DNA of 64,000 nucleotides from Fimbriimonadaceae bacterium. GTDB lineage: Bacteria > Armatimonadota > Fimbriimonadia > Fimbriimonadales > Fimbriimonadaceae. The stretch covers positions 1 to 64,000 of the forward strand of contig JAHCHO010000009.1 in assembly GCA_026129685.1 (NCBI GenBank), given 5' to 3'. A program made the translations under genes and the position numbers. Positions 37,328 to 42,891 of this stretch are shown here, piece by piece; position 1 is the first letter of the stretch; the number at the start of each line of letters is the position of its first letter. The notes under the pieces are model-generated. The model did not search any database. It had not been told where the DNA came from and saw only the letters and a program-made list of their open reading frames with translations.

Positions 37328-38224
37328 ATGCCTATTCACGCTTGGATGATCACGGCGGCGCTGGCGTTCGGGCCGGGAGTCGGGACCGCCTCGGACGGCG
37401 CTCGCGAGGCGGCGTCCGGGTTTCTGGCCCTCCTGGGGCTCGGCCCGGTGCCCGCCGACGCTCGGGTCGAGACGGACGCCGCGCTAGGCCATGTCATGCT
37501 CTCGTCCAACGACTGGTGGCTTGTGATCCCGACGGATACCATGCAAGTCTTTCTGTACCACCGCACGGATCGGGTGACGGCGCGGACCCACGTCACCACC
37601 GCCCATCCGCGCGGCACGCCGCGGGTGACGACGGAGGCCCAGGCCCGAGAGCGGTTCGTGCCGCTGGCGCGGCGCCTGGGGGTGCCCGCGGACTGGGCGC
37701 TCACGGCGGTCCGGGTGAAGCCGGATCGCCCGCGCGAGGAAGGCTCGGCCTGGGAGGACACCTGCGGCTCGGTGGATCTCTCGTTCGAAGATCGCCCGCA
37801 CGGGTTGCCCTACCTGACGATGCACAACTACGCCGTCTTCGAATTTGACCCCTTGGACGGGGTGTTGCTGGATTGCACGATCCGTCGCGACGCGAAGGTG
37901 GAACCTTCCGTGCGGAAGATCACGAAAGAGCGGGCCCGCGAGATCGCGATCGAGACCTACGGGCGAGACGCGGCGCGCATTCCCGCCTACGTGAACGCGG
38001 CGCCCGTCGTCTCCGTCCGCGAAGGCTACGCGGTGCACCAGCGCTTTGGGAGCCCGGTCCCGCGCCGTCGCCTGAATCCGGCCCGCCTGGCGTACACGGT
38101 TCATTTCGACGACGGCGTTTTCGACAAGCCGATGCTTCCCACGACGCACATCACGGTGGACGCGGAAACGGGCGAGATCGTCTGGCGCAGTTACGTCAAG
38201 CCGGGGGCGTATCGAGGTGGCTAG
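37328..38224 (+). CDS. Secreted PepSY-like protein
   Basis: A 298-residue exported protein (signal about 1-19) with a C-terminal PepSY-like repeat: ITKERAREIAIETYG, then ITVDAETGEIVWRSY. Such domains inhibit peptidases or act in envelope assembly. The ATG at 37328 is chosen over 37304 because a GGAG site lies 7 bases before it. The TAG stop shares CTAG (38221-38224) with the stop of the convergent hslU gene. Confidence 0.65.
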   Translation: MPIHAWMITAALAFGPGVGTASDGAREAASGFLALLGLGPVPADARVETDAALGHVMLSSNDWWLVIPTDTMQVFLYHRTDRVTARTHVTTAHPRGTPRVTTEAQARERFVPLARRLGVPADWALTAVRVKPDRPREEGSAWEDTCGSVDLSFEDRPHGLPYLTMHNYAVFEFDPLDGVLLDCTIRRDAKVEPSVRKITKERAREIAIETYGRDAARIPAYVNAAPVVSVREGYAVHQRFGSPVPRRRLNPARLAYTVHFDDGVFDKPMLPTTHITVDAETGEIVWRSYVKPGAYRGG

Positions 38225-39615
38225 AGCACCTTCTGGCTGCGTTCGAGGTCGTCCACGAGCGGGCGCAGCTTGTCGCGGACGAACGACACGTCGATCGTGA
38301 CCGCGTCGGGGCCGCCGGGCGCCTCGAACAACACGTCCTCCAAGAGCTTCTCCATGAGGGTGTGCAGTCGCCGCGCCCCGATGTTCTCCGTCTTGGCGTT
38401 CACCTCCGTCGCGAGGAACGCCACCTCGTCGAGCGCCGCCTGCTCGAACGTAATGCGAACCCCGTCCGCCCGGAGGAGCTTCTCGTACTGCTTGGTCAGG
38501 GCGTTCTTGGGCTCGGTCAGAATGCGACGGAAGTCCTCCTCGTTGAGCGACTCGAGCACCACGCGGATGGGAAGACGCCCCTGCAGTTCGGGGATCAGGT
38601 CGGACGGCTTCGAGATATGGAAGGCGCCGGCCGCGACGAACAGAATGTGGTCGGTCCGCACCGGGCCGAACTTGGTCTGCACGGTCGCCCCTTCGATGAT
38701 CGGCAACAGGTCGCGTTGGACGCCCTCGCGGGAGACGTCGGGTCCCGAGCCGCCGGACTTGCCCGCCACCTTGTCAATCTCGTCGAGGAACACGATGCCC
38801 GTCTGCTCGGCGCGCTCGAAGGCGTCGCGGTGGACCCCGTGCTTGTCCACCATCTTGCCCGCCTCCTCAAGGGTGAGGATCGGTTTTGCTTCCGCCACGG
38901 TGACCTTGCGCACCAGGCGGCGGTTCTGGAACATGCCGCTGGGATGGGCCATATCGAGCCCCATCTCCTCCACTCCCTGGGCGCTGAACACCTGGACGAA
39001 CGGGTTCTGCGCCTCTTCGGTCTCGACCTCGACTAGCCGCCCGTCGAAGTCGCCCGCCAGCAGTTTTGCGCGGATCACGGAACGTCGGTCCTCGCGCAGC
39101 CGCTCCTCGGCCTCGTAGTCCACATCATCGTCCTCGTCGCCGGACGGCTCGACGGTGAGGAACGGACGCCACGGTCGGGTGACGCTCGGTTCGTCGTCGA
39201 GCAACTCGACCAGCCGCTCGATCGCGCGGCGTTCCGCTTCTTCGCGAACCTCTTCCGTGCGCTCCCGTTCCACCAGGCGGACGGCGACGCCGACGAGGTC
39301 GCGGATAATCGAGTCCACGTCGCGGCCGACATAGCCGACCTCGGTGAACTTGGTCGCCTCGACCTTGATGAACGGCGCGCGCGCGAACTGGGCCATCCGG
39401 CGGGCGATCTCGGTCTTGCCGACCCCCGTCGGGCCGATCATGAGGATGTTCTTGGGGAGCACGTCGTCGCGCTCCGCCTCGGGCAGGCGAAGGCGACGGT
39501 ACCGGTTACGTAGGGCGATCGCCACCGCCTTTTTCGCCGCCGCCTGACCGATGATGTAGCGGTCGAGTTCGGCGACGATTTGGCGGGGAGTCAGCTCCTC
39601 GATGGGAAGGCTCAT
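38221..39615 (-). CDS. hslU: HslU, ATPase subunit of the HslUV protease
   Basis: A 464-residue AAA+ ATPase. It begins LTPRQIVAELDRYIIGQ, has Walker A GPTGVGKTE and Walker B IVFLDEIDK, an acidic insert domain and the C-terminal arginine-rich sensor-2 region. HslU unfolds proteins for the HslV peptidase. hslV normally lies next to it, but none is seen here, so it is encoded elsewhere or missing. A TACCCT box ends 7 bases before the ATG. Upstream lies the small UGA-containing gene. Confidence 0.95.
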   Translation of the reverse strand: MSLPIEELTPRQIVAELDRYIIGQAAAKKAVAIALRNRYRRLRLPEAERDDVLPKNILMIGPTGVGKTEIARRMAQFARAPFIKVEATKFTEVGYVGRDVDSIIRDLVGVAVRLVERERTEEVREEAERRAIERLVELLDDEPSVTRPWRPFLTVEPSGDEDDDVDYEAEERLREDRRSVIRAKLLAGDFDGRLVEVETEEAQNPFVQVFSAQGVEEMGLDMAHPSGMFQNRRLVRKVTVAEAKPILTLEEAGKMVDKHGVHRDAFERAEQTGIVFLDEIDKVAGKSGGSGPDVSREGVQRDLLPIIEGATVQTKFGPVRTDHILFVAAGAFHISKPSDLIPELQGRLPIRVVLESLNEEDFRRILTEPKNALTKQYEKLLRADGVRITFEQAALDEVAFLATEVNAKTENIGARRLHTLMEKLLEDVLFEAPGGPDAVTIDVSFVRDKLRPLVDDLERSQKVL

Positions 39616-39640: not shown

Positions 39641-39817
39641 TCACTTGCCCGCGCCGATCGCGATGAGGAGGCCGGTGATCGCGCCCAGGGACACCGGCAA
39701 CGCCGGTATGTGGCACGAGGCTCAGGTGGCGCCCGCGCCCTTGAGGACCAGGTGGTAGGCGAAGCCGATCGCCGCCCCTACCACCGCACCGACGACCGCC
39801 TTGAATATGGGATTCAT
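39641..39817 (-). CDS. Small two-helix membrane protein with in-frame UGA: candidate selenoprotein
   Basis: From the ATG at 39817 the frame reads 31 codons (MNPIFKAVVGAVVGAAIGFA opening helix), meets TGA (39724-39722) as codon 32, then continues 26 more codons to a TGA at 39641. The part after the first TGA is coding-like: ASCHIPALPVSLGAITGLLI, a second helix. Together they resemble the two-helix DUF6132-like family, where a Gly/Ser-Cys-x-Ile/Thr turn joins the helices; here the turn would be T-U-A-S-C-H-I-P, a UxxC redox motif. A hairpin 20 bases after the TGA fits the bacterial SECIS rule. No selA/B/C gene is in the window. Alternatives: a nonsense mutation, or a real 31-residue peptide. 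Confidence 0.5.
39693..39707 (-). promoter_or_regulatory. SECIS-like hairpin after in-frame UGA
   Basis: On the - strand ACCGGC-GTT-GCCGGT is a 6-base stem with a 3-base loop; one or two more weaker pairs extend it. The loop starts 20 bases after the UGA at 39724-39722 and begins with G. Known bacterial SECIS elements have a stem of 4-16 pairs, a loop of 3-14 bases with G in its first two positions, and 16-37 bases between UGA and loop. The fit is to that rule only; no family alignment backs it. Confidence 0.4.
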
Positions 39818-39861: not shown

Positions 39862-41730
39862 TCAACGATCCGCCGCGAGTTGACGGGCGCTACCGAACCG
39901 GAGGGTGAACTCGACCTGGCCGTCGCTGTGCCGCGATTCGAAGGCGACGCCCAAGCCTTGGAGCAAACGGATCATCTTCGGGTTGTCCTCGTCCACGTAG
40001 GCGAGGAGACCGCGCCACTTGGCGGCTTGGGCCGCCTCTACCATCGAGAGCATCAACTCTCGCCCGATGCCCTGCCGTTGCCAATCGTCCCGCACCGCCA
40101 TCGCGACCTCGGCGAAGCCGGTCGCCTCGTTCGCATAGTAACGGGCCACCCCAATGATGCGTTCGCCTGTCTCGTCGTCGCGGTGGGTCGCGACCATCGC
40201 CATCTGCCGGTTGTAGTCGATGTTGACGAGGTCGCGGAAGGTGGCGTTCGAGAGCGATCGGAGGGTGCTGGAGAAGCGGTGTCGCTTCGACTCGTCGCTG
40301 AGCGAGTAGAAGTGTCCCTTCAGGAGTTGCTCGTCGGTCGGCAGGATCGGGCGAACGGTGAGCGTCTCCCCGTTCTTGGCGACGATGGTGCGGACGAACT
40401 CCTCGGGGTAGCGATGGTCCACCGAGGGCTGTTCCTCGGGGATGTAGCCTAGGCGCTTGGCCTCGGACAGGAGCCGGTCGCGGAAAGAGGGATGGGCGAC
40501 CCGGATCAGGTTCAGGGCGCGCTCCCGGATGGATTTGCCGTGCAGGTAGGCCACGCCGAACTCGGTCACGACGTAGTGGACGTCGCCGCGCGAGGTGACG
40601 ACGCCGGCGTGGGGGAGCAGTTGGGAGACGATGCGACTGGCCTTCCCGTTCTGGGCGGTCGAGGGGAGGGCGATGATCGGTTTGCCGCCCTTGCTTCGCG
40701 CCGCGCCGCGCACAAAGTCAACCTGCCCGCCGATGCCGCTGAAGAACTGCTCGCCGATCGAGTCGCTGACGACCTGGCCCGTGAGGTCCACCTCGATCGC
40801 GCTGTTGATCGCGACCATGCGCTCGTTCTGGGCGATCACGAAGGGGTCGTTGGCGAATTCGGTCGGGACGAAGTCGAAGAACGCGTTGTTGTCGACGTAC
40901 CGGTAAAGGCGGTCGGTGCCGATGCAGAAGGTGCACACCACCTTCTTGGGCCGGAAGGTCTTTTTGCGGCCGTTGACGTTCCCCCGTTCGATGGCGGCGA
41001 TGAGTCCATCGGTGAACATCTCGGTGTGGATGCCGAGGTCGTTCTTTTCAGCGATCGCCGCCATGACCGCGTTGGGGATGCGCCCGATTCCGGTCTGAAT
41101 CGTCGCGCCGTCCTCGATGAGGGACGCGATGTGGCGGGCGATCTCCCGGCTCGTTTCGTCGGTCGCGGCGGGCGGGTGCTCGATCATCGGGCGGTCGACG
41201 TCCACCAAGTGGTCGATCTCGTCCACATGGAGGAAGCTGTCGCCGAGGGTGCGCGGCATCCGGGGGTTCACCTCGGCGATCACGGTCCGGGCGTATTTGC
41301 AGGCCGCCATCCCGATGTCGACGCTGACGCCGAGGGAGCAGAATCCGTGTTCGTCGGGAGGGCTGACCGCCACCATCGCGACGTCGATCGGGATTTGGCC
41401 GTTCCGGAACATGGACGGCAGTTCGTGAAGGAACACGGGCAGGTAGTCGGCGCGGCGCTTCTGAACGGCTTCCCGGGTGTTCGGGCCGACGAAGAAGGCG
41501 ACGTGCCGAAAGCTCTCGGCGTATTGCTCGTCCACGTAGGGGGCGGCGCCGAAGGTGATCAGGTGCACGACCTCGACGGCACGAAGCTCGTCCTTGCGAC
41601 GCACGAGCGCTTCGCACAGGACCTCCGGTTGGCCGCAGTTCGAGCCGATGTAGACCCGATCGCCGCTCCGAACCGCCCGCACGGCGACGTCGGCCGTTAG
41701 GAACTTCGCGCGCAGGCGGTCGACGTTCAC
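39862..41730 (-). CDS. Acetyl-CoA hydrolase/transferase (Cat1-like) fused to GNAT acetyltransferase
   Basis: A 622-residue fusion. The first 440 residues are a class I CoA-transferase (succinyl-CoA/4-hydroxybutyrate CoA-transferase type) with VYIGSNCGQPE near the start, GIGRIPNAV and the catalytic Glu in GIHTEMFTDG. The last 150 residues are a GNAT N-acetyltransferase with the acetyl-CoA loop RQGIGRELM and an AYVDEDNPKMIRLL helix. This fusion is known in Proteobacteria and may couple acyl-CoA pools to protein acetylation. It precedes the BON protein on the - strand by one base. Confidence 0.85.
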   Translation of the reverse strand: MNVDRLRAKFLTADVAVRAVRSGDRVYIGSNCGQPEVLCEALVRRKDELRAVEVVHLITFGAAPYVDEQYAESFRHVAFFVGPNTREAVQKRRADYLPVFLHELPSMFRNGQIPIDVAMVAVSPPDEHGFCSLGVSVDIGMAACKYARTVIAEVNPRMPRTLGDSFLHVDEIDHLVDVDRPMIEHPPAATDETSREIARHIASLIEDGATIQTGIGRIPNAVMAAIAEKNDLGIHTEMFTDGLIAAIERGNVNGRKKTFRPKKVVCTFCIGTDRLYRYVDNNAFFDFVPTEFANDPFVIAQNERMVAINSAIEVDLTGQVVSDSIGEQFFSGIGGQVDFVRGAARSKGGKPIIALPSTAQNGKASRIVSQLLPHAGVVTSRGDVHYVVTEFGVAYLHGKSIRERALNLIRVAHPSFRDRLLSEAKRLGYIPEEQPSVDHRYPEEFVRTIVAKNGETLTVRPILPTDEQLLKGHFYSLSDESKRHRFSSTLRSLSNATFRDLVNIDYNRQMAMVATHRDDETGERIIGVARYYANEATGFAEVAMAVRDDWQRQGIGRELMLSMVEAAQAAKWRGLLAYVDEDNPKMIRLLQGLGVAFESRHSDGQVEFTLRFGSARQLAADR

Positions 41731-42030: not shown

Positions 42031-42813
42031 TTAGCGGAACCGCCAGACGATCTTCGCCGCGGCGTTCTTGATCGCGCTCGCCTTGTAGACCTTGGTGTGG
42101 CCGTCCGCGAACACGACGGGGGTCACGCCGCCGTCGTTGCCGTCTCGCTGGTAAAGGCAGTAGATCGGCTTGAGGCGGGCGGGAGGAAGGCTCGAAAGCT
42201 CCCTAACAAGGTCGCGGTCGCTCACCAGGGGCGGGCTGAGTTTGGGATCGGGAAGGTAGGTTTCGCCGTTGTAGGGGCTGAACACGTAGCCCCGATACTT
42301 GGCGGCAAGCGGCCCGTGCGGGGTGGTGGCGAACAGACCGATCCGGGCGCTCTCCTCGGCGCGGGAGAAGTTCACCGCCGTCGTGAAGCCCTCGCATCCC
42401 AAGGTATCCGCTTGACCCTCGACGCAACCGGCGGACGTGACGTCCACCGCCGTGGCGCCGTTGTAGCCGATGTTCTGGCGGTTCCGGGTGTCCCAACCGT
42501 CCGCGTATTCGCCGTCCGTGCCGGGCGCCTTGAAAAGATCCTTGCTCGTGACGTAGGGCAGCACCATCGGCGACCAGATCTGGCGCTTGGTCGAGTCCAG
42601 AGGGTAGATGGTGGCCGGCACGAAGTAGTCGTCGTAGTCCCCTGCGTACATCATCACCGAGGCGGCCAGTTGTCGAGCCTGGGAGACGGCGGTGATCTTC
42701 CGCGCAGACTCCTTCGCTTGGGCGAACACCGGGAAGAGGATGGCGGCGAGGATCGCGATGATCGCGATAACGACGAGGAGTTCGATCAGCGTGAAAGCGC
42801 GGCGCGTGAACAT
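42031..42813 (-). CDS. Type IV pilin-like (DUF1559-style) protein
   Basis: A 260-residue protein whose N-terminus FTLIELLVVIAIIAILAAI is a prepilin signal-helix with the cleavage site before Phe; the following LFPVFAQAKESARK is typical of Armatimonadota. The globular part ends VVFADGHTKVYK, the H-x-DG region seen in such pseudopilins. It is exported and may form part of a secretion or pilus system. The ATG at 42813 is chosen from the prepilin motif; a GAGG site lies before it. TACAAT (42897-42892) gives a leader of about 70 bases. Confidence 0.88.
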   Translation of the reverse strand: MFTRRAFTLIELLVVIAIIAILAAILFPVFAQAKESARKITAVSQARQLAASVMMYAGDYDDYFVPATIYPLDSTKRQIWSPMVLPYVTSKDLFKAPGTDGEYADGWDTRNRQNIGYNGATAVDVTSAGCVEGQADTLGCEGFTTAVNFSRAEESARIGLFATTPHGPLAAKYRGYVFSPYNGETYLPDPKLSPPLVSDRDLVRELSSLPPARLKPIYCLYQRDGNDGGVTPVVFADGHTKVYKASAIKNAAAKIVWRFR

Positions 42814-42891
42814 TGGCGGAACCTCATCCGGACACAAGTCCCCCCGACCGGCCCCCGGGGCGGTTCGACGAGACCCGACCATTGTACGACC

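Follow-up and report, generated by a model that had tools for sequence, protein, structure and literature searches.

A small two-helix membrane protein of a Fimbriimonadaceae bacterium as a probable selenoprotein related to DUF6132

The window analyzed here, a 64,000-nucleotide stretch of the genome of a Fimbriimonadaceae bacterium, contains a short open frame that is interrupted by one TGA. Is this codon a premature stop, or is it read as selenocysteine (Sec), and in the latter case what might so small a protein do with it? A preliminary description of the locus had proposed a selenoprotein composed of two membrane helices, and we examined its homologues, the hairpin that follows the TGA, the Sec machinery of the genome, and the relationships and surroundings of the gene.

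The interrupted frame and its homologues

The frame was located on the minus strand, which the preliminary description had left unstated, and from 39817 to 39641 it translates as MNPIFKAVVGAVVGAAIGFAYHLVLKGAGAT-U-ASCHIPALPVSLGAITGLLIAIGAGK-stop, with a TGA terminator. The reported single in-frame TGA between the ATG and the stop is real, as is the UxxC turn, which in the minus-strand translation joins Sec32 to C35 within GATUASCHIPALPV. The Shine-Dalgarno sequence is weak, leaving the start codon uncertain.

39641..39817, minus strand: predicted selenoprotein gene; 58 aa from an ATG to a terminal TGA, with one in-frame TGA taken as Sec (U32)
39722..39724, minus strand: predicted Sec codon TGA, codon 32; TGA in 67 homologues and a Cys codon in 22
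39713..39715, minus strand: partner cysteine C35 of the UxxC motif; single-partner Cys pattern in 86 of 89 homologues

A first homologue search covered 151 relatives and was followed by a profile search of the whole host phylum (291 genomes). Homologues were recovered from 56 genomes in the first search; 40 carried exactly one in-frame TGA, always in one column, and 16 had Cys there. Three columns of the resulting alignment (A1, 56 sequences) are invariant: the Sec/Cys column, G14 and G18. Across the phylum, 90 of the 291 genomes yielded a match, comprising 67 with a single in-frame TGA, 22 with Cys, and one weak match with neither (L138), which was set aside as spurious. Neither TAA nor TAG was ever found at the Sec position among the phylum homologues and, apart from that weak match, the alignment at position 32, a check proposed in the preliminary description, gave Sec-TGA or Cys and never Trp or Arg. 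As 66 other genomes share the single TGA at the same codon, chance is insufficient to account for the observation. The sole genome-contig match, L009, aligned over 19 residues only and was rejected as a homologue: the surrounding DNA reads as a multi-CXXCH, cytochrome-like protein, indicating a chance match, and a scan of 298 genomes of the other phylum to which L009 belongs gave one weak match only.

Both sides of the TGA appear to be coding, as had been claimed. In pairs of related TGA genes, pN/pS was 0.36 before the TGA and 0.36 after it, an equality which argues that the downstream half is translated; conservation also extends to both sides. Further, the state of the codon follows the presence of the Sec-specific elongation factor: SelB scored above its curated cut-off in 62 of the 67 TGA genomes versus 1 of the 22 Cys genomes (Fisher p ~1e-14, uncorrected for relatedness), and the five TGA genomes without a detectable full SelB are all drafts, 64-95% complete. 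Five genera (g4, g6, g20, g22, and g131) hold both states, the TGA member with SelB and the Cys members without it. Genus g31 is the exception, as its genome G050 combines a Cys form (L072) with SelB, the sole mismatch among the Cys forms; the turn of that protein is altered and reads VCTVGCQQGPAVP. The preliminary description had allowed that a nonsense mutation or a sequencing error might underlie the TGA. Although a lone TGA in one genome could give the same picture, the conservation of TGA at the same codon in 67 genomes, never as TAA or TAG, together with equal constraint on the two parts and the tracking of SelB, excludes for practical purposes either event, or pseudogene formation, in what would otherwise be an ordinary membrane protein with a Cys.

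Selenocysteine machinery and the downstream hairpin

We examined a host assembly of 3.94 Mb in 18 contigs (99% complete) for the Sec machinery, a search that the preliminary description had recommended. selA, selB, selD, and a tRNA-Sec were all found, with matches of 421 bits for SelA, 353 bits for SelB (above cut-off), 356 bits for SelD, and 76 bits for tRNA-Sec, whose anticodon was called UCA by ARAGORN. The selD gene (L018, 1501-2409 on the minus strand of contig C1) has an in-frame TGA of its own near its start, reading HCAG-U-AGKLGPTQL, suggesting that SelD is likely a selenoprotein itself in this genome. Formate dehydrogenase is usually the main bacterial selenoprotein; its best alpha-subunit matches here (L144 and L145, on contigs C13 and C15) contain no in-frame stop, and so no Sec form is apparent among those matches.

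Sec insertion in bacteria calls for a SECIS element, and the TGA of the window gene is followed by a candidate.

39691..39709, minus strand: predicted SECIS hairpin ATACCGGC-GTT-GCCGGTGT, spanning +13 to +31 from the TGA, with its loop at 39701-39699

Folding returned exactly this hairpin, with eight base pairs and a G-first triloop. Of what had been described earlier, the stem-loop and its G-first, 3-base loop are present, but the start reported at about 20 bases corresponds to the loop, at +21, and the stem begins at +13. Of the 40 close TGA forms, 33 have CCGGC-NNN-GCCGG starting 16 nt past the TGA, usually with a GGT loop. In two others (L037 and L051) the stem is preserved although T-A has replaced C-G, bringing the motif or its variant to 35 of 40; L045 retains a slightly different stem, L059, L062, and L066 have other hairpins at roughly the same place, and L069 has no hairpin. 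The loop at +21, GTT or GGT, opens with G, as expected of the apical loop of a SECIS.

The hairpin is more strongly conserved than the protein sequence demands. Within the TGA genes, the motif encodes Ala by GCG in all 39 cases, compared with 38% in the rest of these genes, and Pro by CCG in 94%, compared with 35% in the rest. When hairpin scores were compared with synonymous-codon resampling, in which codon counts were taken with the motif excluded, the TGA forms gave z=9.5 and the Cys forms z=1.3. Base-pair covariation did not rise above shuffles, 68 of 500 of which reached the observed value, because the stem is nearly invariant; we therefore do not use covariation as the sole proof of a SECIS, and the synonymous-codon tests carry the argument. 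A search of Rfam over the region gave no match. In the distant TGA relatives the hairpin differs and is longer (z=-3.7 for the folding energy); in the group L109-L140, the SECIS seems longer-stemmed, with its loop further downstream.

Two alternatives bear on these data. The hairpin might merely mirror the conservation of P-A-V-P in the protein, given that the genomes are GC-rich, as such motifs are also present in some Cys forms, one of which (L023) even retains CCGGCGGTGCCG. It is hard to reconcile this idea with the near-exclusive use of a single synonymous codon set in the TGA forms, unlike the Cys forms, with the difference between the two resampling scores, or with the exceptions (L037, L051, L059, L062, and L066) that maintain a hairpin by other sequences, and we consider it very improbable. 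To a similarly slight degree we credit the notion that the TGA is decoded as an amino acid other than Sec, through a code change or plain read-through: read-through of TGA does occur among bacteria generally, but the window gene, like many of its homologues, also uses TGA as its terminator, each of the 22 aligned forms without the in-frame TGA has Cys in its place, the genome carries SelB and tRNA-Sec, and the hairpin is a specific feature of the TGA forms. Judged by its sequence and conservation, the hairpin after the TGA is a bacterial SECIS.

The Sec machinery, the tracking of SelB by the TGA and Cys states, and the conserved SECIS together support the selenoprotein proposed in the preliminary description; from these genomic data, we regard the window protein as almost certainly a genuine one. 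We infer that, as the ribosome reaches the UGA at codon 32, SelB carrying Sec-tRNASec would bind the hairpin beginning 13 nt further along the message, and that insertion of Sec would yield a 58-residue, two-helix membrane hairpin with Sec32 and Cys35 in the turn between the helices.

Structure, relatives and gene neighborhood

The predicted helices on either side of the TGA are borne out by an AlphaFold2 model of moderate confidence (mean pLDDT 73, pTM 0.42), in which the Sec turn lies between them.

39734..39811, minus strand: first predicted helix, residues 3-28 (AlphaFold2 model)
39653..39703, minus strand: second predicted helix, residues 39-55 (AlphaFold2 model)

Positive charges number about 2.5 at both termini together versus about 1.5 in the loop, a distribution that weakly suggests an outward-facing Sec turn. 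Searches of the Protein Data Bank, profile-based by sequence and by fold, returned nothing significant.

The preliminary description had likened the protein to DUF6132, a resemblance that holds at the level of a superfamily but not of membership. Queried against Pfam and NCBIfam, the window protein had sub-threshold matches only (Romo1 and GvpT), and the DUF6132 model (PF19628) did not match it. A distant TGA-containing relative, L115, does pass the DUF6132 Pfam threshold (30.8 versus 23.2 bits), and the model matches 16 of the 30 members of a second alignment, A2. Like DUF6132, the window protein is, in the model and alignment A2, a small two-helix membrane protein with Cys or Sec in the turn, and its Sec/Cys position aligns with the Cys that precedes PxTSNP in DUF6132-like relatives. 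Unlike them, it lacks the SNP motif and a Cys at -5, and has UxxC and PALPV; accordingly it does not show the pattern defined from L114 and L115, in which a Cys at -5 is combined with PxTSNP following the second Cys. In other families of the phylum, members have GGGUPMTSNP or STUGILCNP. As the DUF6132 model does not recognize the window protein, we refer to a DUF6132-related family rather than to a DUF6132 member. The distant relatives L109-L140 contain TGA and include the one that passes the threshold, so part of DUF6132 itself looks like a Sec family. We found no description of DUF6132 in the papers searched; the sole text match was a paper on an EamA (DUF6) transporter, apparently a run-together DUF6 citation.

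XapX is another two-helix family, with a Pro-Ala turn. Its proteins are also short, and its model (TIGR03510) weakly matches 9 of the 56 members (best E 1e-4); the window protein itself was not matched. The UxxC spacing of the Sec-Cys pair, the downstream SECIS, and the existence of Cys homologues are shared with known bacterial UxxC selenoproteins, including thioredoxin, DsbG-like, and GOS_C proteins (PMC13188914), but the window protein is an integral two-helix membrane hairpin without a thioredoxin fold.

The gene lies between two others on the same strand, and no redox gene is found beside it.

38221..39615, minus strand: hslU, downstream, 25 nt past the stop of the predicted selenoprotein gene; TIGR00390 above cut-off
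39862..41730, minus strand: CoA-transferase-like and acetyltransferase (Pat-like) fusion, upstream, 44 nt before the ATG; TIGR03948 and NF058543 below cut-off

Elsewhere in the window, an open frame at 42031-42882 (minus strand) has an N-terminal segment like that of type IV pilins. In 34 loci of the window protein's family, hemW begins no more than 120 nt downstream, in the same orientation; we rejected this adjacency as a functional link, as hemW is absent beside the window gene and many of its relatives. Other loci of the family adjoin argS, pgk, and nrdR: in one subgroup (L026, L027, L028, L043, L047, and L052) pgk immediately precedes the gene, which in two of these loci (L028 and L043) is closely followed by nrdR. 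Distant members have a thioredoxin gene directly upstream or downstream, in the same orientation, in 12 loci (L116, L119, L124, L126, and L128-L135) from four families, with Sec and Cys forms both represented. OsmC genes lie downstream of the distant members L116, L117, and L124 (with a Pfam match for L116 and L117), and FmdB-type zinc ribbons are found upstream of several distant members. The thioredoxin and OsmC neighbors, links confined to distant relatives, suggest from gene order a thiol/selenol redox activity at the membrane.

A redox couple or a metal ligand

What the Sec would do is constrained by its neighbors in the protein. Exactly one other Cys lies within eight residues of the Sec/Cys in 86 of 89 homologues, mostly at +3 or +4 and otherwise mostly at -4 or -5, and two partners are never seen. 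A Sec-Cys redox couple would require just such a lone partner, placed on one side of the Sec/Cys or the other, and the pair would most likely form a reversible selenenylsulfide at the membrane surface. Thioredoxin may reduce this couple, whose target would be a small oxidant or a persulfide or disulfide. That the protein acts in thiol/selenol redox chemistry we consider somewhat favored by the sequence data; the choice of a small oxidant or persulfide/disulfide is a guess, and any particular substrate would be an unlikely choice.

The alternative that survives best accepts a true selenoprotein but makes the Sec-Cys pair a ligand for a soft metal or metalloid (Hg, Cu, or As), in a two-helix protein like a mercury transporter. 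Such a role would suit the modeled two-helix hairpin with its Cys/Sec pair in the turn and the FmdB-type zinc ribbons that adjoin some distant members, and a Sec form of the mercuric transport protein (MerT), a putative membrane selenoprotein with Sec in a C/SxxU motif, is among the known selenoproteins (PMC13188914). The window protein, however, has no sequence match to MerT or MerF and a different motif, no Mer family is among the Pfam matches listed for any member, and metal-resistance genes are absent among the recurrent neighbors (hemW, argS, pgk/nrdR, and trx). We thus view the metal-ligand role as rather unlikely, although far less remote than the alternatives considered above. The explanation that we prefer as a whole, Sec insertion at the UGA and a Sec-Cys redox couple at the membrane, we would assign a probability of roughly 0.92.

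Neither DUF6132 nor XapX, nor any comparable two-helix family, appears among the 119 families and subfamilies of prokaryotic selenoproteins in a 2026 inventory (PMC13188914), and such a family goes unmentioned in deep-Sep (PMC12013277). To this inventory the window protein would add one selenoprotein family as well as a two-helix, integral-membrane architecture. Such genes are expected to be truncated or overlooked by standard annotation. For the uncharacterized DUF6132-like superfamily, the pairing of one Sec/Cys with only one partner Cys provides a chemical clue, and the several genera in which Sec and Cys forms coexist, with SelB accompanying the Sec forms but not the Cys forms, constitute a natural experiment. 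More tentatively, at somewhat less than even odds, we suggest that a phylum-wide two-helix superfamily, DUF6132 included, uses Sec in a thioredoxin-linked redox device of the membrane, and that in bacteria like this host, whose best formate dehydrogenase matches lack an in-frame TGA, the window protein may be among the few selenoproteins that keep Sec decoding alive.
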